Source: Isoetes taiwanensis (Eukaryota > Streptophyta > Lycopodiopsida > Isoetales > Isoetaceae). Taken from it: DNA of 64,000 nucleotides. The notes under the pieces are model-generated. The model saw nothing but the letters and a program-made list of their open reading frames with translations, had not been told where the DNA came from and did no database searches. Location of the stretch: NCBI GenBank assembly GCA_021234155.1, contig JAJEKV010000052.1, positions 4,569,606 to 4,633,605 of the forward strand. The letters run 5' to 3'. The translations under genes and the position numbers were made by a program. Shown piece by piece: positions 13,458 through 48,802 of this stretch (the first letter of the stretch is position 1; the number at the start of each line of letters is the position of its first letter).

Positions 13458-15050
13458 TGTGACGTTTCAACATAATATACGATCCGAATACGTATATTAT
13501 ACTACCACGTCACACGTACGTGTCATAAATGACATGTACTTGGAAGCCGTAAAGGGTTGCACCTAGGGGGCAAGAGTTGCACATAGGGCGGGCAACCTCG
13601 AATGTTGTGCATGTTTAATAAACATACACAACTATAAACCCCATGGACCCCATTGCCAAATGGCTAAACCCCATTTGGCCAATGTCTAACCTAACCCTAA
13701 GGGTTTCTATATAAGGGCTTTCCCCTTAAACCCTAAACCTTTCTTCTTTGCATTTAGGGTTTTCCTTGAGCTCCTTTCCTTTTCTCGCATTTAGAGTTCT
13801 CTTGAGCCATTTCGGCCAAGCCAAGACCCCAATTCGCATTGCCAGGCTCTGAAAATCCGCCTTTGCACAACAGATCTTCGAGTAGCAGCAGTCTTCAACA
13901 GGATCAGAGGCATGGATGCATTCCGAGGATCTGGAGCAGGTCAAGTACCAGGTAATTAGTCATTCTGTTGTGCAAAGCCGCCTTTTGGCTAGGCAATAAG
14001 CTCGTTTAGCATGTTAATTCAGCCTTGGAGGCCTTACAGATCCCGAGATCATAAGCCCTAACAAAGGAACCTAATTCTGGATGTTTAGGTAGATAGATTA
14101 GATGTTATTCTTCATTTCAGTTCTATGATGATGTTGGTATATTTCACTCTGTGACCTCCATGTATTGGGAAGGGGGGTAGAGGCCTAAAGCCTGTGTAGC
14201 AGATGATCCTAGATAGCCTACTAGTTCCCAATTATATGCGGCCCGTGCACAGGATCCCGCCTGGTTGTGGGTGGCGGGGCTAGACCGGTTGACAAGGAGG
14301 AACTTGTCCTATCACGGATTGACCCCTCTGGTGTGTAAAGCCTACCGGGGGTCTATGCGGGCTAGGCTTAATGGCTTGTCACTGAGTGTGGGCAAGGCAT
14401 GAGCTCGACGCCTCTTGGGTGATGCGTCACCTTCAATGAGGTTCAAGTCGAATACGGGGAGTGGCCCTCTAGCCGCCTGTGATGGGCATGGATGCCTCTG
14501 GAGGGGAGGTGACTCTTCTCCTGCCTCCGCGGGACTGGGGAGATGCAACCCAGCAGTAGCCCCCGACAGGCTACGGTCAGGTCCCAATACCTTTCAACCT
14601 ACTCTGTAAAGTGTGCACGGGAGGGGCAGATGGAGTGGACTACCCTCAGCCATGTTCTTAAATGCCAGCCAAATCCATTTGCCATGAATTCTGTCTGCAA
14701 TGACTTCTGGAGGCCCAATCTGTCAGTCAACCCCCTTGAGTCTGAGCCCTGGGTAGGATTCTGCTTTGTTGTTATTGTTCATATTGATGTTGTTGTATAT
14801 GTGATGATTATGATGTGTTCACTCTTCGAGGTGATTGTATTGATGTATTGTTATTATGTGCTCATGTTTAGCTTCCGCAGCTAGGTCGACCCGAAGGGAG
14901 ACGGGTGAATGACACATCCACTCTTCCCTTGCTGGCTCATTCCACTGGGAGTGGAGTCAGGTGGATGGCCCCTGCCAGTTTGGCTGTCAGGGGGAATGTT
15001 CCGCCTTCTGATACGATGTGTGCATCATATAAGAAGTAGGGGACGTCACA
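13458..15050 (+). repeat. 5' LTR of the H3 element, Ty3/gypsy type, 1593 bp
   Basis: The left end TGTGACGT and right end ACGTCACA are perfect inverted 8-mers with the canonical TG...CA termini. The primer-binding site begins two bases after the right end. A TATA box lies at 13708-13714, followed by a pyrimidine-rich leader (CCCTTAAACCCTAAACC). No second copy was found downstream of the pol region, so the 3' LTR is deleted or was lost with the element's 3' end. Hence LTR-LTR dating is not possible from this window. Confidence 0.85.
13708..13714 (+). promoter_or_regulatory. LTR TATA box
   Basis: TATATAA in the sequence TTTCTATATAAGGG. It should drive the genomic RNA of the H3 element. Confidence 0.6.
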
Positions 15051-15051
15051 G

Positions 15052-15063
15052 TGGTATCAGAGC
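15052..15063 (+). promoter_or_regulatory. Primer-binding site (initiator Met tRNA)
   Basis: TGGTATCAGAGC is the plant-standard minus-strand primer site. It sits one base after the LTR end and fixes element orientation as plus. Confidence 0.9.
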
Positions 15064-15259: not shown

Positions 15260-15549
15260 AGGTGACCCCTCATAGAGTGCGCCCAGACCAAATCCGCTAG
15301 TCTCGGATTTGCTCCCCGCGCACTGTGTGAGTGGTGGACCCATGTTGACCTAGATAGATGCACAAATTAGGTAATCTAATAGTGCAGTTAAACTTATCCC
15401 TTAGATTTCAGCTAGTTTTGCATGTTAAAACGCTAAGAAACTCTTTATAAATTGAAAATTGGACCCAAAAAGAGGTGACTCCTCACAGAGTGCGCCCAGA
15501 CCAAATCCGCCATTCTCGGATTGGCCTCTCGCGCACTGTGTGAGTGGTG
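15260..15549 (+). repeat. Spacer repeat array A: two hairpin units
   Basis: Two copies of a module at about 15266-15334 and 15477-15549, about 208 bp apart. Each begins CTCACAGAGTGCGC and ends GCGCACTGTGTGAG, with AAATCCG and CGGATTT as inner arms, so each can fold into a long hairpin. The same module recurs three times between ORF1 and ORF2. The array sits between the primer-binding site and ORF1. Confidence 0.85.
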
Positions 15550-15659
15550 GATGCTTTTTGGCTAAACCAACCTAATGTATTCATCATAATTACACTAATA
15601 TCTTCTAGAATGGCATAATATGGAATTGCAGCCTGTCCAAACCCTAAAATCCCCCTACC

Positions 15660-15771: not shown

Positions 15772-17549
15772 ATGGCCCAAACCAAACAGACCGCCGGAAT
15801 CATAGTGCCTGAAGATTACGTCAGCGCCCAGAGCGAGCCGCCCAATAGAAGGCGAGACAGGCTCAGGAGCGAGCCAGGCGGGAATAGGACGTAGAAGCCA
15901 ATCCAGATGCCCAAGAGGAGATCCGGGAGCATCAGGAGGAGGAGCGCCCTCAAAACACTGAGCAACAAGAGGATCCTGGGAGCCAGAGCGAGCCAGGCCA
16001 CGAAGAAGAGGGAGCTGAAGAGGAACTGCAGAGGGAGCTGAAGTGGGAGCTGAAGAGGTTGGAGAAGAAGGAGCTGAAAAGGAAAAGGAATGAAGAACAA
16101 TTGGAGGGCAAGAAGACGAAGGAGGAGCGCAGGAGAGAAAAAGAGGAGCGCAGAAAGCAGAAGGAGGAGCGTAGAAAGAAAAAGGAGGAGCGCAGGAAAC
16201 GAAAAGAGGAGCGCCGGAAGAGAAAGGAGGACAAGGGGAAAGACCCCGAGTTGCCAAAGGAGACCCGGCGCAAGTTGAAGACGACGCCGGCAAAAGGAGT
16301 CGTCATATGGGAGCAGGAGCCTGACAAGCCGCCCTCCTCCTCTGACACTGAGTCAGATGAGGAGATAAGGGTCCCTATCCCAGCTGAAGGCTCGGGACCC
16401 TCGAATGCAGGTAACTTAGAGGAGGAGCCTACAGCAGAGGTACCCCCATACCCAAGATGGCCTTCACCCAAGCACCCGACAACAGATAAGAAGAAGCCGA
16501 AGCCTGCGCGAGAGTCGTATCATTAGGGTTTTTTTGAGATTAAAAAGGGGCCTTTAAAACATGCCAACTAAGCCAAATGAAGATAAATGAACTACCAATC
16601 AGAAATCAAAGCCTCCCCAGTCAGCAAAACTGTTATAACTAACTCACTGGATCACATTTTCTAGCATAACTATTGATAGAAAAGTCCAAATGAGCTCTCG
16701 TTTAGTGCAGTGGATAGATCTCGTTGAGATCTTTCCAAACTTAGGTGCTTTGCATATATTTTAACCACTTATGATTGTCAAAACTCCAAAAAATATGGTT
16801 TTTACCATTTTTTACTATCCTACGGGGCTAAAAAATATGCAAAACTATCCAAGGTTGGAAAGATCTCAATGAGATCTATCTATTGCACCAAACAAGAGCT
16901 CATTTGGACTTTTCTATCAACACTTATGCTAGAAAATGTAATCCAGTGAGTGAGTTATAACTGTTTTGCTGACTGGATTACCAGTTCTGTTTTCTGATTG
17001 GTAGTTCATATAGCTTAGTCAGCAGTTCTTAGAAGGCCCTTTTATGATCTCAAAAAATCCCTAATGGTACTCAAGCACGAGCTTGAGTACAGGAAGAAGT
17101 TAAAAGAGTACAACCAGTACATGAAGATGTACGAGGAGGACTCGAAATACTAGGAGGAGCACAGGGTCGCGTATGTAGAAGGAGGCAGGCCAACTAAGAA
17201 GAATACTTTGAGGCCGCCCCTGGAAAGACCAGCACCTCCAAGGAAGCCTATCAGGAGAAAGGCGGACAGGTATTTTGCCAGAGCTGCTCGGGAGATCCGG
17301 CACTTCCAGATGAGCTATGGATTGATGATCCCAAGAGCCGCTTTCGCGAGACTCACTCGCAAAATTTTGCAGGAATTCGACAATACCAAGAGAGTAACAG
17401 ACGACATGTTACTCGCGCTACAGGAGGCGGCCGAGCAGAAGATAGTCCAGCATTCTGAAGACTCTATAGCATGTGCCCTACATGCAAAAAGAGTAACATG
17501 CATGCCTAAGGATATGAAGCTGGCCAAATATATTAAGAAGGAAGACTAA
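15772..17549 (+). pseudogene. H3 element ORF1: histone H3-fold fusion protein
   Basis: The protein of about 411 residues would be encoded from the ATG at 15772 to the TAA at 17547. Residues 1-9 read MAQTKQTAG, matching the canonical H3 start except Arg2 to Gln and Arg8 to Gly. Residues about 41-250 are a charged region with KEERRK repeats and likely coiled coil, then a proline- and acid-rich stretch. The last 85 codons (17289-17543) form a full H3 fold: REIR of the N helix, helix 1, loop 1, helix 2 with ALQEA, then CALHAKRVTCMPKDM. By hand it aligns to canonical H3 without gaps, with about 41 of 85 identities. Residues equal to Arg83, Cys110, His113, Arg116, Lys122 and Asp123 are kept; Lys56 is Met and Lys79 is Asp. 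Loop 1 is not lengthened as in many CENH3s. This copy is broken by a frameshift between 15840 and 15888, a TAG at 17151 and a foldback insertion at 16521-17066. Confidence 0.85.
16521..17066. mobile_element. 546-bp foldback (MITE) insertion in ORF1
   Basis: The ends are CATTAGGG and CCCTAATG, and the inverted repeats extend inward over about 240 bp on each side (for example GAGCTC blocks near 16693 and 16901 mirror one another) with a short AT-rich loop near 16780-16860. It has no coding capacity. It lies exactly between two codons of ORF1 and its length is a multiple of three. The flanks GTAT and GTAC may be a degenerate target duplication. Removing it joins the ORF1 frame without a gap. Confidence 0.85.
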
Positions 17550-17687: not shown

Positions 17688-18168
17688 GCCCCACCCCTTA
17701 CAGAGTGCGCCCAGACCAAATCCGCCATTTTCGGATTTGCTCCTCGCGCACTGTGCGAGTGGTCGAGCACTGATCTTTGCCAATACTTGGCCAAATGAAG
17801 AAAGTAAGGGCACCATCCAACTTAACTCATTGTGATTAGTAGGATTTGACCCTTAGATTGTAGAAATTGGCCAATCTAGACCCAAACAGAGCCCCGCCCC
17901 TCACAGAGCCCAGACCAAATCCGCCATTCTCGGATTTGCTCCTCGCGCACTGTGTGAGTGGTCGACCCCTAATCTATACCAAAACTTGTCTAAATGAAGA
18001 AAGTAAGGGCACAATCCGACCTATCTCGATGAGATGAGTAGGATTTCACCTTTACTTTGCATGTTTGGCATCATCCTCGACCCAAACAAGGCCCCACCCC
18101 TCACAGAGTGCGCCCAGACCAAATCCGTCATTCTCGGATTTGCTCCTCGCGCACTGTGTGAGTGGTCA
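17688..18168 (+). repeat. Spacer repeat array B: three hairpin units
   Basis: Three modules at about 17690-17766, 17889-17963 and 18098-18168, about 205 bp apart. All carry the same hairpin arms as array A, and the middle one lacks four bases in the left arm. The unit between hairpins is also repeated (AAATGAAGAAAGTAAGGGCA near 17793 and 17992). It fills the ORF1-ORF2 spacer. Confidence 0.85.
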
Positions 18169-18327
18169 CACCATATTTGTCCTAACTTTCTCCAAATTAG
18201 ATGAAATTTGTTGCAATAGGATCCTTAGAATGCACTCTTTAACCTAGTTTGCCTATGAATTGCATAGCAGCACCTTAGAATCATAGGGATTCCCCAACTT
18301 TGAAATTTCTAAAATTAGGGTTTTGTC

Positions 18328-18446: not shown

Positions 18447-19961
18447 ATGGCAACCTCTGCATTTAGGCGATGGTACAGCGCCACAGCTCATGTGGCCGAG
18501 GCAGACATCAACTCCATCTTTGCCGTCTTCTAGAAGGAGGTTGATGTGGAGGCTACCATCAATGCCACCCCTTTCTACCAAGACATCATGACTGAGTTCC
18601 ATGCTAAGATAGAACCTTTTCTAGTAGAGCTCCCACCTTGCATAGGATACTTTGCTCCAAGCATGGCCCTCAAGACAGCCCTGCAAGACATCCCCAACAT
18701 AGACAAGTACCTAGAAAACAAGGCTAGCCGCTTGCCTAACTACACGTCCATATCTGTGAATAGGAGGAGATATTCCTCTTACACAGCAGCCGTAGCCATT
18801 TTCCTATCTCATCGAGCCCAAACCCAGATAGGAGAACCATCTATGCAACCCTTACACGTCGAACCTATGGCCATGGCAGCAGCTGAAGAAGAGCAGATGC
18901 GCCTTGCATACGAGGAGGCAGAGGAAGAAGAAGAGGAAGGACGCGAGTCAGACACAGAAGACATCACCGACATAGACCGGGTACAAGAAAGGTAGCAAGC
19001 AGAGCAGCAGCTCCAGAGCTTCGAAGAAGGGCTGAGAGCCACAAGAACAGCCCCACCACTTGGGCAAGGCATCACAAGCTTGACCCCGGTAATTATCCAA
19101 GGATAGGCGTACTTAAGCCTCCACGACATCAAGAACCTCCCAGAGTGCAGAGACAGGGGCTATAGAATATATGAACTTCTGCATCTCCTGCGGCAACAAC
19201 CGGACCTCGATGACTTCATCGATCGGGAAACACAGGACTTTCCCATTAGCATAAGGGAAGCCCGGACATACATTGGTCAAACATCAACGGGCATAGAAGC
19301 CTACACCGGCATCAGGCAAATGATGGCTGAGCAGGAGTTGCCCTCAGAAGAGGAGTTCTTAGCAATTCAGGAGCACATGGGAATCAGAGGGAAATCAACG
19401 ACCGCGCTCCTACCCAGCACCTCGGCATCAGCCCCAGCACTAGTTGAAGGCAGCATCAACCTAGCATCTTCCATGTCCCGTGATTACAGAGAGATAGTAG
19501 AAGTACCAGTTGACGAGTACTCCGGAAGACATAGAGCAGCATTCAGATCCAGCGAAGAGGCAGGGCATGACAAAGCCCTTAGGTTCTACCTCCCCTTGCT
19601 CATTGATGGAAGGATAGCGGTTATACACCGCCAATTTAGCCTACGTAGTGAAGGAGTTTTCATGCTCATTGCTCTCTCAGGATTCAGAAGTCATGCTCAT
19701 ATGGCCCCAAACATCGATCATGTCATCCTTGTCAAGAGAACAATAGCATTAAGCATCTTCGACTTCGCGGTCCCCTATAGAAGACAGGGCAAATTGGCAG
19801 TCACTGCAGCCTATACATCAGAGAGGAGGATTGAAGACTTGGTGACCGCACTTCAAGGAGGCATGGCCACAAATATCTTGAGGAACTTAGGGCGAACAAT
19901 CGGCACGGCCCAAGTGAAGAACTTTTTGGAGGACAACCCGGATTACATGAAAAGATTCTAA
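18447..19961 (+). pseudogene. H3 element ORF2, unrecognised protein with acidic tract
   Basis: From ATG 18447 to TAA 19959-19961 one frame runs for 505 codons, interrupted only by three in-frame TAG codons (18531, 18993, 19104). The N-terminal part begins MATSAFRRWYSATAH. Residues about 140-175 form a strongly acidic tract rich in Glu. The C-terminal third is hydrophobic and ordered in appearance (ALRFYLPLLIDGRIAVIHRQ ... VPYRRQGKLAVTAAYTSE) and may be a globular domain. I recognise no family. It is not gag, which follows separately. Pairing of an acidic-tract protein with an H3-like protein recalls histone chaperones, but that is only inference. The three TAGs make this copy non-functional unless read through. 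Confidence 0.6.
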
Positions 19962-20017: not shown

Positions 20018-20354
20018 TATTATATCCATGAATATAAACAATGATCTTAAGTATGTTTTCTTGACATATAATTTGCCCCCACAATTGCATCATCAAACAA
20101 ACCAGTGCAACAACCGAAACAAGGAACTAATCATCAGAGTTCAATCTAATATGCAGCTAGAGTACCTAAGAACATTGAGGAACAAGGACAATGTGAGCAA
20201 GAGCGCACTCCACCAAGGCAATTCCGACCAAGAAATCTGTACCAAGAGTTTGATGCACCAACACCAGAAGAGGAGCTATCCCAGATTAAGTCAGACATTC
20301 ATGAGATAAGAGCATTACTGGCAAGAGCAAGCAACAGGAGGACAGGACCAGAAT

Positions 20355-21935
20355 GTGCAACTGCCAGAAACCCAAGGCGACCGAACAGTTCATCCAAGGA
20401 AGAGAAGCCGGAGAAGGAGATCACCTAGCACGGAGTCCTCCGACTCTAGTTCAGACTCTGATTCCGGATCGGAAGAGCAGGAGGAAGAGAGACAGGACTG
20501 CCAGGAGGGTCCAAACCGTGATAGAGGCAGGACACAATCTGACTATCAGAAGAAGGTCGACTCGGCGCTCAGCAATGTATGGAAAGCAAGAAAGCTGGAG
20601 CAATTTTCAGGGGATAGCAGGTCCGGAGTGGAAGCAGAAGCATGGTTGGACGAAATGAGGGAGTATGGAAATGCCTATGGCATGAAGGAGAAGGACAACG
20701 GTAGAGTAGCGACAGCCAACCTGAAGGGAGCAGCCAGGATTTGGTGGAAAGGCTACGCCAAAGTACATGGACTAAGCAGGGACAGTTGCAGGTTCAAGAA
20801 GTTTGCTAGGGCATTCAAGCGTCATTATGTGCCAAGAGAATACAAGTGTCACATGATGCAGCAGTTTTACAGGTTGCAGCAGGGCAATAAATCAGTTCAG
20901 AAGTACACGGAAGAATTCATGAGACTAAGGCTCTATGTGCCGAAGTTGAGTGAAAGGCACACAGTAGAGGGTTACATTGAAGGATTGAACAAGGAGATCT
21001 GGAAGCTAGTAAGAGCAATAAACCCTAGGATGGTGTCAGAAGCAGAATCCAAAGCAGTCAGCCTGCAAGGAACCGGACCCCAAGAATATGGACCAAGACA
21101 GTAGTATTACCAGGATAAGGGAAAGGGCACAGGAAGTTATAGCCCAAGAGCAGCAAGCCCAGCAGCTAGCAGGCCTCAATACAACGCTAATTATGGGAAG
21201 CAGGGCAATGCAAACAGTGGCAAGCAAGATAAGAAGCGGGTGACCTTCAAAGAGCAAGGAGGGGGTTCCAACTACTCAAAGGCAGTGAAACAGTTTTTGC
21301 AATTCATTCTCAAAGAGAAGAAGCAGGAATGCATAGAAAAGCATTTCCAGCCAGGGCATAGGACAAACAGCTACCCCTTGGTGATGAACGCGGCATTAGC
21401 GGAGATGGGATGGGAGACACCCACGGACGTTGACGAGGACGAGGCCACAGACTACATCCAGGGTGAGTGCCACGTCTTTGCTGCCATTGACACCGAGAAC
21501 GCTGAGAGTCAGTATCAAGTTATTTCAACAACCGGGAAGGCTAAATCCAAGTCTTTCATAGTGTTGATAGATACGGGAAGCACCCATAATTTTGCTTCGC
21601 CAAGGATGGTACAGATGTTGAAGCTGAAGCCTTTGAAGTCCAAGCCTAGGCCAGTTGTCTTGGCTAGTGGAGCAGTCCGACACACAGCAGGGAAGAGGAT
21701 CAATTTCAACGTAGACTTGCCAGGTATCAATGTTGCATTGGGAGCTGAAGTGATGAACATCGGCAAGTACGACTTGATCATAGGCATGGAATACCTTGGA
21801 CCAGCGAGAGCCGTAATTGATTGTGGGAAGCGGAAAGTAACCTTAACAACGCCAGAGAGCAAGGTCATTGAGATAACAGGGAAAGAAGTCACCCCAATCA
21901 TGCAATGCATGTCTAGTGAGAAGTTACTTAAATGC
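20355..21935 (+). pseudogene. H3 element gag-protease, split by copia
   Basis: One frame runs from 20355 into the copia insertion, with a single TAG at 21102 between gag and protease. Gag (to about 21100) has an Arg/Ser-rich start, then the Retrotrans_gag core (WLDEMREY ... ARIWWKGYA ... FKRHYVP ... EEFMRLRLYVP). The frame probably began further upstream, since gag-like text (LYQEFDAPTPEEELSQIK) occurs in the next frame at about 20220-20300, implying a frameshift. The zinc knuckle is reduced to a PGH remnant near 21350. The protease centre is VLIDTGSTHNF (21564-21596), an aspartic protease active site with DTG, followed by the usual IIGMEYL flap-distal segment. Normal pol continues at 51704 after the copia element. 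Confidence 0.8.
21931..21935. repeat. Target-site duplication, left (copia)
   Basis: AATGC, repeated at 51704-51708 immediately outside the other copia LTR. It shows that all sequence between is one insertion unit plus later nested insertions. Confidence 0.9.
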
Positions 21936-22768
21936 TGATGAATTTAGAGGCAAAGAGTATGATTTTGCAAGTGTAATAACAAAATGCCTAGCAAGATTTT
22001 CAAAATTCAAGATCTACATAAACACATGTAGTACAAGTGAGGATTTAGTGGAGAGCCACAATATGGTCTCTCATCTCCACTATTGTAAACTCAATAATAT
22101 GGGAAACAAGTTTTAATGGTCAATAAACCATTAGCCTTAAATCTTCACAAAGATATAATGAGTTTACTGTTCATCGGGCATTGACTCGATTACTGTAGCT
22201 CAATTGACTTGAGCATTTCACGTTCTACTCAGCCGGATCTGCTTCATAACTCCGTCCGTCCATATGTTCTCACAGGTTCCATATTCATAGTTGTAAATCC
22301 GGCGGTTAAGGGACAGCTCCACTTTCCTATCTGGGTCTATCTCCATGTCTGCATATATCCCACAGGATAAACGTAAGGAAAAAGGCTGGTTCACAATATC
22401 CCACATGAACGTTGATAAAAATCGGCCTTGGAACCATTGAGGCTTATTCTTCGAATTAATTTGCTTTCTTCTTCAACCTTAACCATGGTTGCACTATTTG
22501 GTTCTCAACCTCCAATGAACAATTTTGCTAGCACTTAACAGAGAATTTATCATCACTGCTGTACCCTAGGTAATTAGATAATTCTCAAGTTTTTTCTGGC
22601 CCACTGCCACTGCTTCTCATGGGCAGACACATTGAATTGTTTAAGTCTTCATGCAGTATAGGTCACAACATTCTGCAACATTCTGCAACTTGTGAGTTCA
22701 CTTGGATCACTGACTGCTCACTTGCATTCTAAAAGCAATCACTGCCACTGCTTCTCATGATTGCAATA
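21936..22768 (-). repeat. Copia 3' LTR, main part
   Basis: In plus coordinates the LTR begins TGATGAATTTAGAGGC. It continues at 42293-42319 (ending AACTTATCA) beyond the Helitron, for a total of about 860 bp. It is nearly identical to the LTR at 50865-51703; the differences are a few substitutions and two short indels (near 22275 and 22535), which suggests a young copia insertion. Confidence 0.9.
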
Positions 22769-23517
22769 TCTTTCTTTATACTAAAGGGATTTTGAGTGTT
22801 TGTCATCAATTTTCATTTTGAGCCGTCTGATTTTTTTTTAAGATCGAAGGGCTAGGATTCCATATTGGGCAGGGCGCCCAATCAACAATTGCTTTTGGGA
22901 AAGTTTTTCATCGTACATTTTGTTTTGTTTGGGAGCCATTCTGTGCAGTCTTTTCTCCATCTCTGCCGTTCGAGATGCGTGTTTTGCTTAAGCTTGTCTA
23001 GAGGACGTTCCCTTGTTAACCTGTTTGGTGATCTTTCACAGCAATCCTGAGTGCTTGGGAATCCCCTTATCAATCGGTTGAGGCCCAGAGCATAATAACT
23101 TAAATTACATGTGTTTGGGGATAAATTCTGCTACCTATGCCCTTTTGCTCAGGAACTGTGGCAACGAACATGAGCTACTTGAGGGTACATGCCCGAATAC
23201 TAACAGATGGTTTTGGAGAAGAGCGGTATCTGCCCTGGGGAATCTGCTTATTGAAATGTTATGCTCTGATCTGATCTATAAAAAAAAGAAAGAGGAAGGG
23301 GAGGGATTTTTTTGCCGGATTGGAGCAGAGGGGGTCAGAAATTTTTTCACGAATAAGGTGAGGGTTTTTTAATCTTCTATTTTTCTCATGCTTTTGTTCT
23401 TACCATTTTGTGCTCCAGTTATTTCTGCTTTCGACTCCATCTGTGCTTGAACCATCTATTAGCTTCTTAGATCAACATTCTTTTTCTTTTTTTCTTCTGA
23501 CTTTTCTGACCTGCAGC

Positions 23518-23688
23518 CACCGGATTTCTCAGTTCTTAAGCAAAATATTTTGCACAAGCGGCCAATATTTTGATGAAGTGCATATGTGTCTCCTCCTCTG
23601 GAATTGGGACGGTTTAGGTGAGATGAGACCACAAGTGATTGAGTCTATAATGCCGCGTCTCATCTCTCTGATTGCATGGCTGAAACGT
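23518..23688 (+). pseudogene. Exon-like captured fragment, unrecognised
   Basis: A polypyrimidine tract and CAG acceptor (ending 23517) precede it and a GTAAGC donor follows near 23689. One frame is open and ends with EMRPQVIESIMPRLISLIAW-like text. The family is unknown. Splice-like borders inside a Helitron suggest captured genomic exon sequence. Confidence 0.35.
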
Positions 23689-23782
23689 AAGCATCCTTTT
23701 TCTTCTTTCTTTCTTTTTTGTATTTGCATGTCTACAAATTTTTAGTTCTGAGAGCTCAATTGTTCATCTGCCCCAGATCTTG

Positions 23783-23907
23783 ATGGGCTCTCAAACTTGC
23801 AAGCATTCTGTTGATAACGAAGAAGCTGGTATTAGGTCTGTTTTGCAGAAACCAGACAGAGTCACGGTGAACCCATCCAATGTTATTCAATTCTCATGGA
23901 AGCCTAG
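23783..23907 (+). pseudogene. Captured first exon, prolyl 4-hydroxylase-like
   Basis: An open segment from the ATG at 23783 ends at a clean donor AG|GTAATG (23907/23908), with an acceptor-like CCAG at 23773-23776. The end encodes DRVTVNPSNVIQFSWKPR, which resembles the segment just before the catalytic domain of plant prolyl 4-hydroxylases (usually ...LSWxPR followed by a FLYKGFLS-like segment). The catalytic domain was not found, so this is a captured fragment only. The match is short, so the family call is tentative. Confidence 0.45.
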
Positions 23908-25631
23908 GTAATGTTCTTTGGATGTTGGATATTTACTAATCTATATACAATATACAAGCCTTATTTTGTGGGCGGGCAGAGACAGACAGGGATGTGGATG
24001 TGCACATAGATGTTTAACAAACCTGCCTACAGATCTCACCCCGTCCCTGCAAAGGTACAAATCCTGGCAACTGCAAATGTTTTAGAACCTTCATTATCCT
24101 TGTTGTTTGTTCACCCAATTATCATTCTGCTTCTGTATATTCAATACCATTGCTAAAGCTGTTACATATTTCTTCACTGAGTTGTTCAGAATCTCTAAAG
24201 ATCCAATGCCCCTGGAAACAATGCTATTTCTACAATATACAGTGTCCAGGTAAGTCTAAATGTGACACAAAGTTATGCCATTGGGAAGAGACAATGTAGG
24301 CCGATAGATAGCAATGTTCAAATAGGATATGGTCTTTGTATGATTGGTAATGAATTGGTTAAAGCCAGGTTGCCTGGAAAAGAATCAGGTCAAAATACCA
24401 GAAAAGGCAATTGGAAGGGTCTTCACTCTGTTTCTCTATGGAGGACTTGAAACCTGTAAAAAAGGGAGAATAGGACTTGATCCCATGTTACATTTGTTTA
24501 CAGCAGCTAATCGATTTCTAATTGAGTTCTCTGAATATTTGTGCACGCTGCTGAAGTTTCAATAATCTAGCTAAAATTCTGGCCTTCATCCTTTACGCGA
24601 TAGGCACTTGCCGATTTGGCACATGCCTCCTTGAGAATTACAGCATTTCTGTGTACGGCCGCACCATAAGTAGCATGAATCCCAATTTGCTTATTCTTCT
24701 ATCTCAAGTTGTGTCAGTTGGCCCCATGCTATGTCTTTATGTTTGGCCCCATGCTCATAATTATGGCTTTAATTTGCTAGGTGCAGGTGGACATTAGATG
24801 TGGTTTAGCTATTGATGTGCTAACTGGCCTATTGGAAAATGGAGAACTAGGACGTTAATTCTTTGTCCTGTTTAATTGGCTAAGTCGTTAAGACTCAAAC
24901 ATGTAAACATTATGTTTGCTATTTGCTTTGCAGTTCAGTGTATACAAGCAAATAAGAAACTATATGCAGTCACAGTCACAGAGGAAGATTGAAAAAGAGG
25001 AAGATTGAAAAACTGACGTAAGTAACATATGTCTCTTATCTTTTATGGAAATTTATCAAAATTGGACAATGTAGTATGATATAGCAATTCCACCATTTTG
25101 TTAATATTGACCTGACTTAGGCATGAGATTTATCATGTCACGATTCAGAGCAGCTAAGGGGAAAAGACATCCCAATGCTAATAGCAAGAAGATCAGTTTA
25201 TTTTATGTTCCACCTTGACTTTTACATCCATGGTCTTCTTTTTGATCCATTTAATGTTAATGCATTTTTTTTTTACCTCTTGATGGGTCTTGATATCTTG
25301 CAACTATATGTTAATTTGTATTATAATGTCGTTATTGTAGTGCTTTTGCTTCCTATGAGGAGTTATTTGACACGTTGCTGCTTTGTGTGGATGCCTTGCA
25401 AATTCTTCGAACTCTCAGCAAGTTCTCCTGCATTTAGGACTGTTAATTGGGTCATCTCCTACACAAAAGAAAGACCATGATCTGCTTTAGCTTCTCAATT
25501 ACTGGATTGCGACAAAAGTTAAAGGAGTATTCTACTATATTTCAGTCGGTGCTAATGTGATATTAAAGTGTCTTTGGTTATTATCTTCCAATTGTCTGCT
25601 CTATCTAGCTCTATCTAACAGATGTACATGG

Positions 25632-25775
25632 ACCAAAATGATCCAAAGGCCAAGTCATAAATTTTAGCAAAGAAACTCTGAGTTCCCTTACCATCAAAGG
25701 TTTGAGCAACATTATCGAACCCAAAATGATCCAAAGGCCAAGTCATAAATTTTAGCAAAGAAACTCTGAGTTCCC
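25632..25775. repeat. Direct repeat, 57-bp unit twice
   Basis: CCAAAATGATCCAAAGGCC begins units at 25632 and 25721, both running to GAGTTCCC(T). The second unit ends exactly where the first chromovirus LTR fragment starts. Confidence 0.8.
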
Positions 25776-25895
25776 TGTAACGGACCTAGGATTTTGAGGT
25801 ATATTGTGGAATTATTTTATTAAAGGATGCAAAGGAATAATAATCGAAATATTATGCATGCATAGTATATATATTGTATATGTGGTTTTTAATAC

Positions 25896-26907
25896 TGTAA
25901 CGGACCTAGGATTTTGAGGTATATTGTGGAATTATTTTATTAAAGGATGCAAAGGAATAATAATCGAAATATTATGCATGCAGAGTATATATATCGTATA
26001 TGTAGAGATTATACGGATAAATATACTAGTGATTAATAATAAATACAAGTACATCATGAAGTATTGGGAAGGTGATAGATTGCGATCAATTCTTGTCAAG
26101 GAGGTGGTGTGAGCAATACTTGGGGGCGTGTTGAGTTACCCTCACACTTGAAAGTACATAACGTTTTCCATGTGAGTAACTTGAGGAAGTATGTTTTTGA
26201 TCCTTCCCATATCTTTGGGGGACGATGATTTAGTAAGCGAGGGAGAATTTTACATACCCCACCGCAACGTATTTTTTGCGAGAGGAAACCCGTCGCTTAA
26301 GGAGGCGAACAATACGGAGATTTTTGGTTCAATGGGCGGGTTGTCCTGAGGAAGATGCCACATGGGAAGATGCCAATTGGATTCTTCGTGAGTTTCCGGA
26401 GATGCGCCCATGAGGACATGGGTTGAATTTTTGGAGGAGAGACCGAACGGACCTAGGATTTTTGAGGTATATTGTGGAATTATTTTATTAAAGGATGCAA
26501 AGGAATAATAATCGAAATATTATGCATCACGTATATATATATCGTATATGTAAAGATTATACGGATAAATATACTAGTGATTAATAATAAATACAAGTAC
26601 ATCATGAAGTATTGGGAAGGTGATAGATTGCAGTCGAATTGCTGAAGGAGCAGGGTGTGAGCAATACTTGGGAGCGTGTTGGAGTGCAGAGGGAGCAAGC
26701 GGGATTCCAGGTGGGGATCAAGACTTACACCTGGGGTTTTCTAGTGTAGCATTTATGTGCTTGTTTAATTTGTGGTTATGCATCTAGGATGGGAATAGAA
26801 TTGGATTGTATGAGCATGGTTGTTAACATGAACGCACAGCATGAATAGTGTTTCTTTAATAATGAAATAACTGGGTTTGCATGGCTGGCAACGAACTTAA
26901 TATTTTA
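25896..26907 (+). repeat. Left 1.0-kb inverted arm
   Basis: The arm contains an LTR start fragment, the pol C-terminus with chromodomain (about 26125-26412), a purine-rich tract (TTGGAGGAGAGAC) and a second LTR start that stops at AACTTAATATTTTA. Its reverse complement is at 33518-34527 with the same internal junctions and nearly equal length (1012 and 1010 bp). Several frame-breaking changes in the chromodomain show that this arm is decayed. Confidence 0.85.
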
Positions 26908-26910
26908 TCA

Positions 26911-29447
26911 TGTGACGGGCCTGGCCAGTTAACCTCTCGGTAACTGGAGATCCCATCGATCTCTATCGTTGGATCTACTTAACCTTAGGAACTCAAGAAT
27001 TGATACATGCATATCTAGGTAAAGAATTTAATCTTTATGCTCTAAGGTCCCAAATAAATTTATTATTGCCATTACTCAGCAAAACTTCACACAACTCCCA
27101 AAGCTTTAAAATAATATCACTTCAATCCATATATAATAACAATAATAGTCAAGTTAATTGAACAACAATCCACACGCATCTACCCTCGCTTTTACGAGCT
27201 TGGCTACTCTGAGGCGTCTTTAGCCCTCCGCTACACCATTAACCACGGGGTTAGTCACACGGACTAAGTGGGGATCGGGAATCTAGGTCATATCTAGCAT
27301 TAATCATCACAAAGCATCAACTTTAAACAATAACGTAGCCTTACCATAACCTCGCCCCTGCAATCCAAGTAATTAATCCAACAAGCACAACACATAATTA
27401 TGCCAAACATAGCCATTGCAACTTGATTCCAACATTAAAAACCACATATACAAAAGCCAAGCAACCAAAGCATCAACATTGCAACCAATATTCCTCTGGG
27501 TCTGAGCAAGGTCAACTTCGCCGTCGAGGCCCGGTTGACATAGAGGGGGTAACCACGTGTGTACACACCCATCCACGCAAGGTCCAAAGATTGGAGGACC
27601 ACTTAACTGTGCACGACGTTGTACCATACGGTATCAACGCCCGATGTTCAAATAGTAACATTAACATTTTTACTGTGCAAAAACCGCGAGTCTAGACCAT
27701 CGCACCTAGACTCCGGCCCCAGAGGTCTATATCAAAGAATTACATCACAGATAATTACGTAATTCACCATCATTATGACCCATGCCTTAACAAGCTTACA
27801 TCAAGTTAATTCCATACACACTCTATGTAACAAGGACCATGACTCAATAATTATGATAACCTCAATAATGCAAAATAAAAGATAAACGTCTACATTTTTC
27901 CAAGATTCACTAACAACAAGATTACTATCTACATTTAAGACTTTAATAATGTTTAACCTATAGCATTCAATTGTCGTCATGTTTCTATTAAAACTACTAT
28001 CTATCTATCTATCTATTACCAACTTCCTCCATACATAACACTTGTACCTTGTTTTTTTCCTCTCTTCATTTAATTAATTCCAAAGGTTAAATATATAGCT
28101 AGCTAACTTGTAAGACTACTCATGTCGTAAATTACGTATATCCATTAGCATTAACTCCTCCTTACTTAGGCCTCAATCTCACACAAATTCCTCACCCAAC
28201 TCATGGTTCCAGCTAACCCTTGCCATATTAAATTAACCTATGACCTTAGCTTAAATTATTAACCTCACTTTATTATTATCTTAGCCTACCAAAAACTAAC
28301 TATTAACATCTTTGTTGGTTTATTTTTTTTGAACCTAACGTGCGTTTAACAGGAAACGCACTCTCGGACTGCAGCTCGTGGATCCGGCCTCCAGGCCATC
28401 GGACCCAGCCCAAACCCGCTTGGATGCAGCCGATTCTGGCTCCTACAAGGATTTCCATGCCAAATTGTAATGCTTGTTTGTGGCGAACAAGATGATTCTA
28501 ACCGATTTACTTCACGCCGAGGAAATCCGACCGGCGGTTTCGGACCTGGCATCCGGGCCATCAATTCGGCTTGGAAAAAGCATGAAGCTTTTCGATTTTG
28601 CCGGCAAAGAGGCTTCCAAGCCATTTCGGCCGGTTCGCCCTAATCCGGCGATTTCAATCAATTTTGGGCACCAAGACCCGGATTTTTACAGGCAAATTCA
28701 ACTCCAATCATCCTAATTCTGTGTTATCTCTCCATTTCGGCCTCCTTAAGGCCCAAATCGCCCATTCCAGGGCGATTCACATGCTTTTTGCAAAGATGCC
28801 AAATCGGCAAAAGATCATCCGACGCCTTTTGCCTTTGCATGCAAGGAAACTTGCTGGTTCTTGCTTCATCAATTTAGATTTCAATCCATTCTTCCAAATT
28901 CTAACCAATCTAAACCATTCCAGCTTCTTCTATCATAGATTACACTCACACCTCTTACTATTACCATGATGGAAATTTCATAAAAATATTAAGTTCGTTG
29001 CCAGCCATGCAAACCCAGTTATTTCATTATTAAAGAAACACTATTCATGCTGTGCGTTCATGTTAACAACCATGCTCATACAATCCAATTCTATTCCCAT
29101 CCTAGATGCATAACCACAAATTAAACAAGCACATAAATGCTACACTAGAAAACCCCAGGTGTAAGTCTTGATCCCCACCTGGAATCCCGCTTGCTCCCTC
29201 TGCACTCCAACACGCTCCCAAGTATTGCTCACACCCTGCTCCTTGACGAGAATTCGAACGCAATCTATCACCTTCCCAATACTTCATGATGTACTTGTAT
29301 TTATTATTAATCACTAGTATATTTATCCGTATAATCTTTACATATACGATATATATACTCTGCATGTATAATATTTCGATTATTATTCCTTTGCATCCTT
29401 TAATAAAATAATTCCACAATATACCTCAAAATCCTAGGTCCGTTACA
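26911..29447 (-). repeat. Full-length chromovirus LTR, 2.54 kb
   Basis: Read on the minus strand it begins TGTAACGGACCTAGG at 29447 and ends GGCCAGGCCCGTCACA at 26911. A purine tract and chromodomain precede it in minus orientation, so it is a 3' LTR. It is related in length, ends and internal sequence to the solo LTR at 7353-9885. Confidence 0.75.
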
Positions 29448-30812
29448 GTCTCTCCTCCAAAAATTCAACCCATGTCCTCATGGGCGCATCTCCGGAAACT
29501 CACGAAGAATCCAATTGGCATCTTCCCATGTGGCATCTTCCTCAGGACAACCCGCCCATTGAACCAAAAATCTCCGTATTGTTAAGCCTCCTTAGCGGGG
29601 GTTTCCTCTCTCGCAAAATACGTTAAATGGGGGTACAGAAAATTCTCCCTTCCTACTAAATCATCGTCCCCGGCATATGGGAAGGATCAAAAACATACTT
29701 CCTCAAGTTACTCACATGGAAAACGTTATGTACTTTTCAAGTGTGAGGGTAACTCAACACAGTAAGCCACCTTGCCAATACGTTCCAAAATCTCATACGG
29801 ACCCGCATACCTAGGGGCCCCATTTACCGCACTTTTTAAATGCCGATGAACTCTGCTTGGGATTAATCCTCAAAACACATAATCCCTTTTTGAAATTCAA
29901 GTGGTCTACGTCTCTTATTTGCATACGTTTCTTTTTCTATTTTGTGCCATAAATTCCAAGGCGAAGTCTCCTTAGTTGAGCATCCATGTCCTCCGCTACT
30001 TCATTAGTCGCTTCAACATTGCATTGAGGATCTCTCAATTAAGAGGACAACGGCACTCCTTACCATACATTGCTTCAAAAGGACTCATTTTGATGGAATC
30101 TTGATAAGTGTTGTTGTATGCAAACTCGGCCAAGTACAAGTAAGAATCCCATACCTTTGGTTGACTAGGCACATACATTCTGAGCATATCCTCCAAGACT
30201 TGATTAACTCGCTCCACTTGGCCATCGGCTTGAGGACGATAAGATGTACTGGCATATAACTTAGTCCCAATATTTTGAAACAACCCTTGCCAAAATTGGC
30301 TCATAAACTTTGTATCCCGATCTGATGAAATAGTGGCTGGCATCCCATGCAACCTAAAAATCTCCTTAACGAATAACTTAGCAATATCCATTGCCGTAGC
30401 AGTAGTCTTCGTAGGCATAAAATGGGCCTGCTTGGTTAGTCGGTCAACCACAACATAGATTGCATCATAACCCAACGTGTCCCGGAAGCTCAACAATGAA
30501 GTCCATGGAAATACTCTCCCACTTAGAAGATGGAATTACCAAAGGTTGTAATTCTCCAGGCTCCCTAAACCTTGATGCTTTTACCTTTTGACAAGATAAA
30601 CACCTAGCCACATACTCCTTAACCATCTTCTTCTGTCCGGGCCAAAAGAAATTCTGGCGCATTTTCCTCAAAGTCTTATGTACCCCTGGGTGGCCCGCTA
30701 AAGGACTATCATGTGCTTCATATAACAACCTCAATCTCAACTCCTGATCATTAGGAATACACATACGGCCATTATAATAACCCACAGGTCCCAAGATCGA
30801 AACTTGACTCTA
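29448..30812 (-). pseudogene. Chromovirus integrase and chromodomain part
   Basis: On the minus strand, 30794-30465 encodes the zinc-binding HHCC region (LLYEAHDSPLAGHPGVHKT ... CLSCQKVK) and the start of the integrase core (SMDFIVELPG). The stretch 30496-30035 continues the core, with SDRDTKFM and ADGQVERVN supplying the second Asp and the Glu of the DDE triad. A frameshift separates the two near 30480. Further decayed sequence leads to a chromodomain at about 29760-29470, then a purine-rich tract and the LTR. RNase H and everything upstream are missing at the junction at 30812/30813. Confidence 0.8.
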
Positions 30813-30836
30813 GGTTAACTGGCCAGGCCCGTCACA
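30813..30836 (+). repeat. LTR terminal fragment, 24 bp, inverted copy of 26911-26934
   Basis: The last 24 bp of the LTR on the plus strand are the exact reverse complement of 26911-26934. The fragment adjoins the minus-strand pol on its left and a primer site on its right. Confidence 0.85.
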
Positions 30837-30838
30837 GT

Positions 30839-30850
30839 TGGTATCAGAGC
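30839..30850 (+). promoter_or_regulatory. Primer-binding site of the plus-strand chromovirus half
   Basis: TGGTATCAGAGC two bases after the LTR end CCGTCACA. It proves that the 5' half of this element runs on the plus strand. Confidence 0.85.
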
Positions 30851-30923
30851 AAGGTTCTGGTTAGTGGATTGTGAGATTTTTTATTATTGATGATATTTGC
30901 TATGATTTCAGATTCTTGTAGAG

Positions 30924-31923
30924 ATGAGTTCCCCAGGAGGATCCCCAAGAGGAGTTGAACAGGCTGGTGGAGCTGGGCCTAGTGGAACCCCTGATGTAGC
31001 CGGTATCTTGCGCCTATTCGAAAGTGTTGCGGCCAGAGGCGTCGCAACAAAAAGACAAAGCAAACAAAGGCGGTGGAGAAAGGTGCTGAAGGACACTAAG
31101 AGAGAAGTATTTACTGGAGAAAATGTTACAGGGGATGATGCGGATTCATGGCTTCGTGGGGTTGAGTTTTATTTTAAACTCATCAATCTTCAAGACTTCT
31201 GTTAAAGCTGTATTGGCTCAGGCAATGTTGGGTGGATTTGCTAGAGTATGGTGGGAGAATTATTTGCGGGACATAAATAAGGTTGCAGGGCAGGCAACTT
31301 GGCAAGAGTTTAAGACTGCTTTTGAAGGACACTTTATGCCTCCCGGATACAAAGTAGACAAGATGAATGAGTTCTTGGACCTGACACAGAAAGGGACGGT
31401 GGCTGAATATAACGAGAAGTTCAGAAGGTTGCAGTATCATTGTCCTTTTGAGGATAAGGAGAAGCTTTGCGCTCGATTTGTGAAGGGTTTGCAGGTTGAT
31501 ATTAAGAGCACAATGTCAGGTGTGTCCTATAAGGATTTGGAGGAGGTATTCCGGATTGCTAAGAATCGTGAAGCTGATCTAGTGGAGAAGGCAACCTTGG
31601 AGAATGCTAAGAAGAGACAAGCTCCTTCCACATGGCAGACTGGTGGATCTACGAGTAGAGGTAGATTCCCTAGCAGGGGTGGCATGGCTGCACAGGCTGT
31701 TAGTATGCAGGAGGGTGGTCAAAGCCGAGGATCTCGACCTATGTATGCACCTTTGAATGATGAAACCAGGGAAAAGTGTATTAATGAGAATCGATGCTTC
31801 AGGTGCAGAGAAGTTGGTCATTATGGACGAGATTGTCCGAGAAGGTGGATGGATAGCACCGCCGCCGTCACGCATGTTCTCAACGTGGAGGGCAAACAAA
31901 ACCGATGGTCCGTCGAACTCTAG
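30924..31923 (+). pseudogene. Chromovirus gag
   Basis: ATG 30924 opens a frame with the gag start (MSSPGGSPRG ... VFTGENV ... DADSWLRGVEFYF). A frameshift near 31195-31205 moves the reading to the next frame, which carries the core (ARVWWENYL ... GHFMPPGYK ... EYNEKFRRLQ) and one zinc knuckle, CFRCREVGHYGRDCP, at about 31798-31842. The frame ends at a TAG at 31921-31923. Apart from the frameshift it is well preserved. Confidence 0.85.
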
Positions 31924-33440
31924 TGATACTTATGGGACCGGGGCCAAGGCAGAGGAAATGGAGGCCGAGGTAACCGTGGTGGTCGTGGAGGTTTTTGGGA
32001 TAATAATAGGGGTGGCAGAGGACAAGCTAGGGGAGATAACAGGATTATAGCACAAGCTAACCCTGCAGTTGAGGTTAGGGCTGCTAGAATCATGGACCCT
32101 CCCCGTGGAAAGAATGTGCATGTATCTTTGCAGCGGGACCAGGGTCGTGTAGATAATCAAGTTTGTGGTCATCGAGTTCCGTGTATTATTCATGGAGTTC
32201 TGTTCTCTTTCTTATTGATTGTGGTAGTACACATTGCTTTATTTCCCCAAGGCTGGCAAAGAAATTAGATTTGAATATGATTAGTCGGGACCCTAGATAT
32301 GTGGAGTTGGCTGATGGCAAAATTAAGACTTCCTATGCTAAGGTAGACAATCTTGAATTCCAAGTAGGAGATCTTGAGTCCCATACTAGTTTTGAAGTAT
32401 TGAGCCTAGGGAAGTATGATGCTATTCTAGGAATGTCATGGTTAAGGCCACATAAAGCTTGCATTGATTGCGGAAAGCAAACAGTTACATGCCAAAGTCC
32501 TAATGGAGATAAGTTTGTGCTGGAAGGATTGCCTTCGTCATTAGTGGTTACACCTTTGTCCCGGAAAAGTTTTAAGAAGCAGATTAAGAATGGTTGCATA
32601 AGAATGGGATGTGCATTGTTGTTAGATTCATTCTTGGATGCTAGAGTTACTGAGAACAACCTATTGCCCCCGAGATCCGTAAAGTGTTGGATGAGTTTTT
32701 ACGATGTGTTTCCTAAAGAATTAACGGAATTGCCTCCACATAGAATGGTAGATCATGAGATAGAACTTGTTCCTGGGGCTGAACCCACATCAAGGCCACC
32801 ATACAGATTTCACGCATTAGAGATGGCTGAATTGAAGAAACAGTTAGCGGAATTATTGGAACAAGGGTTTATACGGCCGAGTGTTTCTCCATTTGGTGCG
32901 CCAGTTTTGTTTGTTAAAAAGAAGGATGGGACATTAAGGTTGTGTATTGATTACCGCATGCTTAACCAGATTACAGTGAAGAATAGATATGCATTGCCTA
33001 GGGTTGATGAGCTATTTGACCAGTTGGGACAAGCTAAGTACTTCACAAAAATTGATCTACGATCTGGATATCATCAGATCCGGATCAAGGACACAGATAT
33101 TTATAAGACTGCATTTAGGACACGCTACGGACATTACGAGTTTGTTGTAATGCCCTTTGGGTTGACAAATGCTCCCGCCACCTTTATGCGTCTAATGAAT
33201 GAGATATTCCGATCTTTCTTGGATAAGTTTATATTGGTTTTCTTTGATGATATTTTGGTATATTCCAGGACATTAGAGGAGCATGTGGAACATGTAAAGC
33301 AGACATTAGCTATTTTGCGGCAAGAAAGGTTGTATGGTAAGCTATCTAAGTGTTCTTTTGCACAAACTAGATTGGTATACCTTGGGCATGTTATTTCAGA
33401 GAAGGGATTGGAGCCAGATCCGACAGCAGCAAGCCGTGTT
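31924..33440 (+). pseudogene. Chromovirus protease and RT, truncated
   Basis: The best frame begins about 32163. The protease centre is [10 protein letters not shown] (about 32215), where the usual DTG or DSG is DCG. RT follows with [22 protein letters not shown] and the catalytic FFDD at about 33242-33253, then [10 protein letters not shown]. Coding similarity stops near 33425, in the connection before RNase H, where normal elements continue. About 80 bp of unassigned sequence separates it from the right inverted arm. The missing RNase H matches the part that is also absent from the minus-strand half. Confidence 0.85.
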
Positions 33441-33517
33441 TGCATTCTCTGTAAATGCACGTTCAGGGTTAGGTTAGGAAATATAAAAAGCTAACATTTG
33501 TTAGTAGGTTAGTTAAT

Positions 33518-34527
33518 AAAATATTAAGTTCGTTGCCAGCCATGCAAACCCAGTTATTTCATTATTAAAGAAACACTATTCATGCTGTGCGTTCATGTTA
33601 ACAACCATGCTCATACAATCCAATTCTATTCCCATCCTAGATGCATAACCACAAATTAAACAAGCACATAAATGCTACACTAGAAAACCCCAGGTGTAAG
33701 TCTTGATCCCCACCTGGAATCCCGCTTGCTCCCTCTGCACTCCAACACGCTCCCAAGTATTGCTCACACCCTGCTCCTTCAGCAATTCGACTGCAATCTA
33801 TCACCTTCCCAATACTTCATGATGTACTTGTATTTATTATTAATCACTAGTATATTTATCCGTATAATCTTTACATATACGATATATATACTCTGCATGC
33901 ATAATATTTCGATTATTATTCCTTTGCATCCTTTAATAAAATAATTCCACAATATACCTCAAAATCCTAGGTCCGTTACAGTCTCTCCTCCAAAAATTCA
34001 ACCCATGTCCTCATGGGCGCATCTCCGGAAACTCACGAAGAATCCAATTGGCATCTTCCCATGTGGCATCTTCCTCAGGACAACCCGCCCATTGAACCAA
34101 AAATCTCCGTATTGTTCGCCTCCTTAAGCGACGGGTTTCCTCTCGCAAAATACGTTCTGGTCGGGGGTACAGAAAATTCTCCCTGCTTACTAAATCATCG
34201 TCCCCCAGCATATGGGAAGGATCAAAAACATACTTCCTCAAGTTACTCACATGGAAAACGTTATGTACTTTCAAGTGTGAGGGTAACTCCAACACGCTCC
34301 CAAGTATTGCTCACACCCTGCTCCTTCAGCAATTCGACTGCAATCTATCACCTTCCCAATACTTCATGATGTACTTGTATTTATTATTAATCACTAGTAT
34401 ATTTATCCGTATAATCTTTACATATACGATATATATACTCTGCATGCATAATATTTCGATTATTATTCCTTTGCATCCTTTAATAAAATAATTCCACAAT
34501 ATACCTCAAAATCCTAGGTCCGTTACA
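33518..34527 (-). repeat. Right 1.0-kb inverted arm
   Basis: Reverse complement of the left arm, with LTR starts at 33980 and 34527 (read on minus) and, between them, a clean chromodomain frame (34295-34011: LPSHLKVHNVFHVSNLRKY ... FLVQWAGCPEEDATWE). The junction where an LTR fragment meets the chromodomain (TGTTGGAGTTACCC) is the same as in the left arm. The chromodomain frame is intact here, so this arm is the better preserved of the two. Confidence 0.85.
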
Positions 34528-41629: not shown

Positions 41630-42264
41630 CTTGAAAGAGTAAGCACTATCTACCAACTTAACATTGTTTATTTGATTTACTAAATGATTATGAAAATGAC
41701 ACAGGTACATATGGACTCTCATCTAGAAGCATCAAGCTCTAAAAATATTGAACGAAACGACGACTCACCATCAGTAAGCACCTAACCAACAATCAAATAA
41801 ACAACTTATAAATATGCAGGAACCATTGTAAATGTCATTTTGATAAATACGCACGAACCATTGCAAATGTCATTTTGTAGGAACATGTGGTTGTCAAAAT
41901 ACCGACCTGTACAAAATCTTCGACAATAATTGTTAGTACTGATCATAGTTAAAAGTATGCAACATGCTATAACAAGGTTCCGACAGAAGCTACACTCTCC
42001 AAAGAGTTGAACTAACGATACGCAAAGTTAAAGAATTCCAAAGAGAAGTAGATATGTCATCCTTACACAAGAGCATGTAAAATTTATGACGAAATCCAAT
42101 GTGGTTATGAATGACATACAATTGCTACAAATATTTGCATTCATTCCAAATTTTACTTTATGAAATCATCATTTCATACATATGTTTCTCTTAGCAAATG
42201 GATAAGACTAAATTTTACAGCATATCATGACAAAGATGCCTTGTAGACAAACAATTCCCTTATC

Positions 42265-48799: not shown

Positions 48800-48802
48800 T
48801 TT

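Follow-up and report, generated by a model that had tools for sequence, protein, structure and literature searches.

Chromovirus-type LTR retrotransposons of Isoetes taiwanensis carry a histone H3 gene as their first open reading frame

Introduction

Plant LTR retrotransposons are known to carry open reading frames (ORFs) in addition to gag and pol (PMC7264820), and the word 'histone' does not occur in the accessible portion of that account. The closest described relatives of the element reported here are the Ty3/gypsy chromoviruses of non-seed plants, Tcn1, Galahad, Mordred and others, which share with it the LTRs, gag, protease (PR), reverse transcriptase (RT), RNase H and an integrase with a C-terminal chromodomain (PMC2864245, PMC3350952). 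The Selaginella element SM-Tcn1, however, consists of gag and pol only and spans 5.7 kb, whereas the present element has two ORFs ahead of gag, one of them encoding histone H3, and reaches 13.4 kb; a histone ORF is not mentioned in the accessible parts of these two sources (PMC2864245, PMC3350952). Captured domains are represented in plant LTR elements by the m6A demethylase (AlkB) of Phalaenopsis Gypsy elements, and a screen of 121 angiosperm genomes recovered 15 unusual domains in such elements, histone not being among the nine that we counted as named in the accessible part of the source (PMC9289625). The AlkB elements resemble our case in that a host-derived domain, proposed to counter host control, became fixed in a Gypsy lineage; they are angiosperm elements, whereas here the captured protein is a core histone and the genome that of a lycophyte (PMC9289625).

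Among cellular proteins, the centromeric CENH3 and other H3 variants likewise combine an H3 fold with an altered tail; the protein described here differs in being encoded by a high-copy transposable element, and the family to which our starting copy belongs (family A) is without the CENH3-type insertion in loop 1. Viruses, including giant viruses and bracoviruses, encode histones and histone mimics, and these are comparable in that a parasite supplies a histone-like protein acting on host chromatin or on its own. Known examples belong to DNA viruses or are short tail mimics, whereas here a retroelement encodes an H3 tip and an H3 fold with a long insertion.

Silencing of retrotransposons by their hosts works through marks on the histone H3 bound to the element DNA. 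We know of no retroelement that carries an H3 gene, and one that does would be the first known to bring along the very protein targeted by silencing. With such an element one can test whether a retrotransposon is able to replace the chromatin of its host along its copies, and selection by a parasite here provides a natural series of H3 variants in which some parts are conserved and others change freely. No earlier description of a histone-encoding retroelement was found in the literature searched, a scope outside which bioRxiv and most subscription papers fell, and 'histone' has no occurrence in the main text of the genome papers of Isoetes taiwanensis (PMC8566536) and I. sinensis (PMC10541799). 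On the basis of the literature searched, a chromovirus with a captured H3 is new.

Organization of the element

The window, a stretch of 64,000 nucleotides from a contig of I. taiwanensis, contains a Ty3/gypsy chromovirus in a decayed state; a histone H3 fold forms the C-terminal end of its first ORF. All parts of the element given below, the nested insertions apart, lie on the plus strand. It opens with a 5' LTR (13458..15050; ends TGTGACGT...ACGTCACA), which shares 88% identity over its length with the 3' LTR in locus L041 and 89% with the 5' LTR in L043 (1,585 columns). It is followed by a primer-binding site (PBS) identified by motif match (15052..15063), TGGTATCAGAGC, which we take to be of the initiator tRNA-Met type; this motif has three matches in the window, compared with a mean of 0.00 in 100 shuffles. 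A search of the window for a second LTR found none, and the 5' LTR is the only one that this copy shows.

The H3 ORF follows the leader in several pieces. Its start, comprising the tip MAQTKQTAG and the residues up to an in-frame stop, was located from the translation and from other copies (15772..15894). A charged spacer, open for 212 residues in another frame, was recognised by its translation and by its composition in four other proteins (15888..16526). The frame is then broken by a MITE-like insert (16525..17063; inverted arms 16617-16751 and 16842-16976), which is missing from the copies whose ORF spans that site. The C-terminal part, consisting of a linker and the H3 fold, aligns without gaps to H3 from R49 at 17289 (17064..17549). 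The first-pass annotation had read 15772-17549 as one ORF, which does not hold here: a stop closes the first frame after 40 codons, the insert intervenes at about 16525-17063, and a TAG stands in frame at 17151. Within the insert, positions 16690-16905 resemble Rfam MIR8007 at 57 bits, far under the cut-off of 195.

Downstream lies a second extra ORF (ORF2; 18447..19961), broken in the window, with its start set by eye and from copy c1, and then gag (20310..21104; Retrotrans_gag, Pfam E 1.6e-16) and a protease region (21105..21938; RVP_2, E 9e-13). Nested insertions of about 30 kb split the element at this point (21939..51690), the alignment to other copies stopping at 21935 and resuming at 51691. 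The remainder comprises a decayed RT with the start of RNase H (51691..52779; RVT_1, E 5e-16), RNase H and integrase (52754..54340; Integrase_H2C2, rve, SH3_Tf2-1) and a chromodomain (54356..54502; Pfam Chromo E 5.1e-9, above the cut-off). The order gag, PR, RT, RNase H and integrase is that of Ty3/gypsy chromoviruses, and the L041 copy holds protease to integrase in one stretch. The chromodomain sits at the integrase C-terminus; a TAG precedes it in the window, and L041 has the same residues without this stop. Together with the loss of frame and the insert and stop in the H3 ORF, this TAG marks the window copy as decayed. Compared by eye with HP1, the chromodomain keeps one of the three cage aromatics, and reading of H3K9 methylation by this domain is doubtful for that reason.

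Copies across the genome

The genome (1,658,258,908 bases in 1,110 contigs) was searched with the H3 part. The best 150 of 9,163 first-look candidates all match at E <3e-60, the window included, and by our count the matched stretch is free of stops in 113 of these 150 and interrupted in the other 37; the copy numbers given here are lower bounds. One complete copy, locus L028 with its flanks L042 and L041, spans 13,434 bases (C1045:4981314-4994747). Its LTRs share 95.0% identity in an aligned stretch of 1,330 columns and 95.7% in another of 301; the 5' LTR has some 240 extra bases. A PBS follows the first LTR, a purine tract (PPT) precedes the second, and the 5-bp target duplication ATGAG stands on either side. 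Between the LTRs lie the H3 ORF, gag-pol and the chromodomain. The L042/L041 copy thus shows the paired LTRs, PBS, PPT and 4-6 bp duplication expected of a Ty3/gypsy chromovirus, and the H3 ORF is a conserved frame beside gag-pol common to many copies.

The arrangement recurs elsewhere. Gag, protease or RT was found at the expected place downstream of H3 in six of eight family-A copies (c1, c2, L002, L021, L014 and L028, with gag only on the downstream side of c2), and neither gag nor pol was seen downstream of the other two, c3 and L010. Among the matches listed, 13 of 126 integrase matches have an H3 match 4-14 kb upstream on the same strand, and none has H3 in the wrong order or on the wrong strand. 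Because the remaining 113 of the 126, again among the matches listed, have no H3 in that interval, chromovirus elements without H3 may also exist.

The first-pass annotation had placed an H3-fold ORF between the PBS/5' LTR and gag and had proposed that the element captured a host H3 gene. Both statements are borne out: an LTR end and PBS stand before the fold and Retrotrans_gag after it, the H3 ORF lies between LTR and gag in other copies too, and H3 is found within a complete element whose LTRs match and which has a 5-bp target duplication, so that H3 is not a host gene beside an LTR element. The accompanying suggestions that the protein might enter nucleosomes, mark new copies or guide integration are conjectural. 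We are practically certain that an H3 gene was acquired by a lineage of chromovirus-type LTR retrotransposons, in which it persists as the first ORF.

Gene transduction by plant LTR elements is on record (PMC7264820), and the H3 sequence could in principle be a captured host fragment that brings the element nothing, or an H3 gene of the host with an LTR insertion next to it. This is highly improbable given that all 150 best matches agree, that a second family exists, that dN/dS lies far below 1 and that H3 sits inside a complete element with a target duplication; the passenger reading is already refuted unless the selection estimates given below are an artefact of scoring the most similar copies. 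Its variant with a host gene beside the insertion was itself considered and ruled out by the 150 matches and the complete element.

The H3 protein of family A

When translated, 17154-17546 gives a Pfam Histone match of E 2.1e-20 (73.6 bits; cut-off 26.4), the outcome of a comparison proposed at first reading, and matches solved H3 chains of the PDB at E 4e-20. Against H3.3, the ungapped alignment from R49 to the C-terminus has 43 of 86 identical residues, close to the earlier hand count of about 41 over 85. Arg83, Cys110, His113, Arg116, Lys122 and Asp123, said at first reading to be retained, are indeed each kept, together with T118, in 27-30 of 30 family-A copies; presumably these are H3-H3 and DNA contact residues. 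Other positions have changed: R63 is replaced by Pro in 28 of the 30 copies and K79 by Asp in all 30, and the RPG ahead of the N helix is not kept. The predicted structure has helices at 39-54, 61-74, 83-115 and 118-127 (mean pLDDT 71, pTM 0.41), and its top Foldseek matches are nucleosome entries (E 3e-5), whose chains we took as H3 and onto which it superposes poorly (rmsd 10-21). Sequence and predicted structure thus both point to an H3-type histone fold.

The ORF also begins as H3. Its opening MAQTKQTAG, overlooked in the first reading, is a decayed form of the canonical tip MARTKQTAR, intact in other copies. At least six of the nine places match this tip in 28 of 32 family-A copies (30 loci and two longer stretches). 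Among these 28, K4 is kept in 28, T3, Q5 and T6 in 27, A1 in 26, A7 in 23, R2 in 21 and R8 in 20, counts that the six-of-nine rule itself favours; position 9 holds Ile in 21 of them and Lys in one (copy c1). Past the tip, four family-A proteins depart from H3 over a spacer of 256-290 residues in which Lys, Arg, Asp and Glu abound and which includes a lysine- and arginine-rich segment, and then pass through a linker into the fold. The canonical N-terminal tail is hence present for residues 1-8 only, the remainder being replaced by the spacer. A fusion of H3 to a charged coiled coil had been suggested; the charged stretch does exist, but it lies inside H3, between tip and fold. As read from its translation, the family-A protein is an H3 with 256-290 charged residues in place of most of its tail, since the ORF also starts with the H3 tail tip. 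The ARK[ST] motif of K9 and K27 is absent from all four family-A proteins.

The Lys/Arg-rich segment of the spacer and the position of the ORF ahead of gag might suggest that the protein compacts the cDNA or RNA of the element in the virus-like particle or pre-integration complex. Simple nucleic-acid binding, however, needs neither the H3 dimer-interface residues nor the tail tip, and we consider such a packaging role the least probable of the functional readings discussed here.

Selection on the H3 domain

Over 30 copies, the median pairwise dN/dS of the family-A H3 part is 0.065 (426 of 435 pairs used; median dS 0.96) and that of the fold alone 0.062 (391 pairs), values to be read with the caveats that ranking matches by protein similarity favours conserved copies, that pairs are not independent and that dS is near saturation. 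In seven copies, H3 gives 0.082 (15 finite of 21 pairs, the six pairs with c1 being saturated), and the protease in six of those seven gives 0.104 (15 pairs; single close pairs up to 0.47). The family-A H3 domain is under purifying selection, and such values, the caveats notwithstanding, are not expected of a neutral passenger.

A second family

A canonical H3.3 query retrieved 15 host genes at 97-99% identity and at least 135 further matches at 72-87%. The 15 host canonical H3 genes are full-length and stop-free and each is matched in one piece (L044-L055 and three more places); L044, one of five that were read, is of the H3.3 type by residues 31, 87 and 90.

Twelve of the 135 further matches were read, and all 12 are H3 folds close to the canonical form and H3.3-like. 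We refer to them as family B. Eight of the 12 have open frames of 420-567 residues, a PBS lies upstream in 10, and a stretch like the core of the window LTR is also found in 10. The eight proteins begin with MAITK, MANTK, MANIK or MTNTK, and L059 with MARTKGTK; the chosen start is the first Met of the open frame in seven of the eight. The Lys at residue 4 is not independent evidence, because the pattern used to choose the start codons contains it. Conservation of the tip is incomplete, with ARTK present in one of the eight. By eye, the N-terminal region of about 300 residues is unlike the family-A spacer, and it has no Pfam family above the cut-off in L056-L067. The ARK[ST] motif is absent from six of the eight proteins, and the other two have ARK[ST]G in the linker. 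Within family B, dN/dS is 0.027 for the H3 part (23 of 28 pairs) against 0.138 for the N-terminal part (22 of 28 pairs). In the one 1.5-kb stretch read behind a family-B H3, no ORF was recognised by eye as gag. Among the matches listed, none of the 135 family-B matches adjoins any of the 126 integrase matches, a comparison that took 51 matches on the same strand and downstream and the other 84 on either strand within 40 kb.

These patterns bear on the possibility that the protein acts as a mimic or decoy, its free H3 tip and fold occupying H3K4 readers, methyltransferases or H3 chaperones outside nucleosomes and so blunting host chromatin control. Family A does keep both tip and fold, and the charged spacer could keep the protein soluble. 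A mimic of the tip alone, however, needs no whole fold with H3-H3 contacts held at dN/dS of about 0.06, and in family B the tip decays, yet the fold is held at 0.027. We regard the decoy role as unlikely.

A possible role in chromatin

The reading we prefer, although we hold it tentatively and at well under even confidence, is that the element supplies an H3 variant that may join nucleosomes, without the K9 and K27 silencing sites and with K4 kept. As the first ORF after the leader, the variant would be made early from genomic RNA. It would pair with host H4 and, with the help of host chaperones, be deposited on newly made element DNA or on integrated copies, taking the place of host H3 there. 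Because the tail past residue 8 is replaced, such nucleosomes would present no H3K9 or H3K27 ARKS site to silencing methyltransferases, while K4, whose mark is that of active chromatin, would stay available on the retained tip. The element could in this manner provide its own silencing-resistant chromatin.

Consistent with a nucleosomal variant are the H3 fold seen by sequence and structure, the contact residues kept in 27-30 of 30 copies, the presence of K4 in all 28 tip-matching copies and the absence of ARK[ST] from four of four family-A and six of eight family-B proteins. The low dN/dS (0.065-0.082 in family A, 0.027 for the H3 part of family B) points the same way, as do the complete element with H3 inside and the order relative to integrase, right in 13 of 126 and wrong in none among the matches listed. 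Several observations pull against it. In family A, the Pro at R63, the Asp at K79 and the lost RPG could weaken DNA wrapping, and copy c1 has a Lys at position 9. In family B, two of eight proteins have ARK[ST]G in the linker, and the tip is partly kept, with ARTK in one of eight. The tail without K9 and K27 could also be a by-product of the insertion.

Origin of the H3 genes

Family A holds together as one clade (100/100), set off by a branch 1.3 to 3.5 changes per column long, and its placement shifts with sampling. A 30-row tree places it with plant CENH3 (94/90, not starred); a 79-row tree, in which long branches are numerous, does not recover this grouping. The canonical tip and the H3-length loop 1 favour an H3 source, the one-residue loop-1 insertion of plant CENH3s being absent from family A in alignment with canonical-type H3; the RHFQ and LLIP stretches favour CENH3, and family A shares some CENH3-like residues by eye. 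A host CENH3 could not be picked out among the best 150 matches. Family B nests within plant H3 beside host H3.3 (group 99/99, with H3.3 91/91), and in the 79-row tree it stands at 96/94 with canonical H3 and 99/65 with H3.3. Holding the two families as one clade is weakly rejected (p-AU 0.022, with long branches in play), and the H3 gene may have been captured once, in an ancestor common to A and B, or twice.

These affinities might suggest that the variant is loaded at a particular class of chromatin, replicating, H3.3-type or centromeric, and that site choice by the integrase relies on it, either directly or by way of the chromodomain. The presence of a chromodomain on the integrase, the grouping of family A with plant CENH3 in the 30-row tree along with its CENH3-like residues, and the nesting of family B beside host H3.3 all fit such targeting. 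The CENH3 grouping, however, is gone in the 79-row tree, the loop-1 insertion is absent, and the chromodomain keeps one of three cage aromatics by eye; we judge site choice through the variant improbable, about as much so as the decoy role. Returning to the nucleosomal reading, its broadest form is more tentative still: at least two retrotransposon families would build their own nucleosomes on element DNA with an H3 that can be methylated at K4 and cannot be marked at K9 or K27, that of family A perhaps being derived from centromeric H3.

A search of 5.8 billion protein sequences with the H3 part yielded 66 matches of 105 candidates at lengths 72-229, and 8 of 398 over a longer length range. 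By their names, their Pfam labels and the 14 sequences read, the matches elsewhere are H3 or CENH3-type proteins, and the family-A spacer is absent from all 14 outside H3 sequences read. A scan for relatives in viral contigs found none. The eight longer matches (P0067-P0074; 306-472 residues), mostly metagenomic, have an H3 fold at the end and long, partly acidic N-terminal parts, as in P0073 (412 residues).

Other features of the element and the window

ORF2, of more than 400 residues between H3 and gag, is also present at L031:2435-3697 on the minus strand. The window version has no Pfam match, and the c1 version has no homologue at E<=1e-3 among 5,434 candidates. Between the families, ORF2 scores 28.1 bits by blastp against a maximum of 26.2 in 60 shuffles, and two hhalign runs were not significant; homology of ORF2 between families A and B is only suggested, because blastp is just above the shuffles and hhalign is not significant.

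Five strongly folding hairpin repeats occur around the H3 ORF, two of them 5' and three 3' of it, with a spacing of 199-213 nt within each group and at positions similar in many of the loci read. The leader holds repeat 1 (15260..15345; fold -40.9 kcal/mol, z -6.0), found at a similar position in other copies, and repeat 2 (15473..15558; z -3.2), whose position also recurs. Repeat 3 (17688..17773; z -5.5) lies 3' of the H3 ORF, followed by repeats 4 (17887..17972; z -2.1) and 5 (18092..18177; z -7.3). An alignment of the hairpins gives 26 pairs with 93.7% of cells paired, as high as in 3 of 500 shuffles. An RNA structure is not proven, because covariation does not exceed that of shuffles and RNAalifold gives a consensus of 4 pairs.

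Among the nested insertions at 21939-51690 are further LTR elements. PBS motifs occur there at 30839 (+) and 50852 (-), an ORF resembling gag (31123-31923) and one resembling integrase (30035-30418, minus strand) were noted by eye, and a repeat cluster lies at 25775-34630. Beyond the element, an exon-like ORF at 58681-59019 contains GDLSY and NHELDY, presumably motifs of a purple acid phosphatase, and is possibly part of a host gene.
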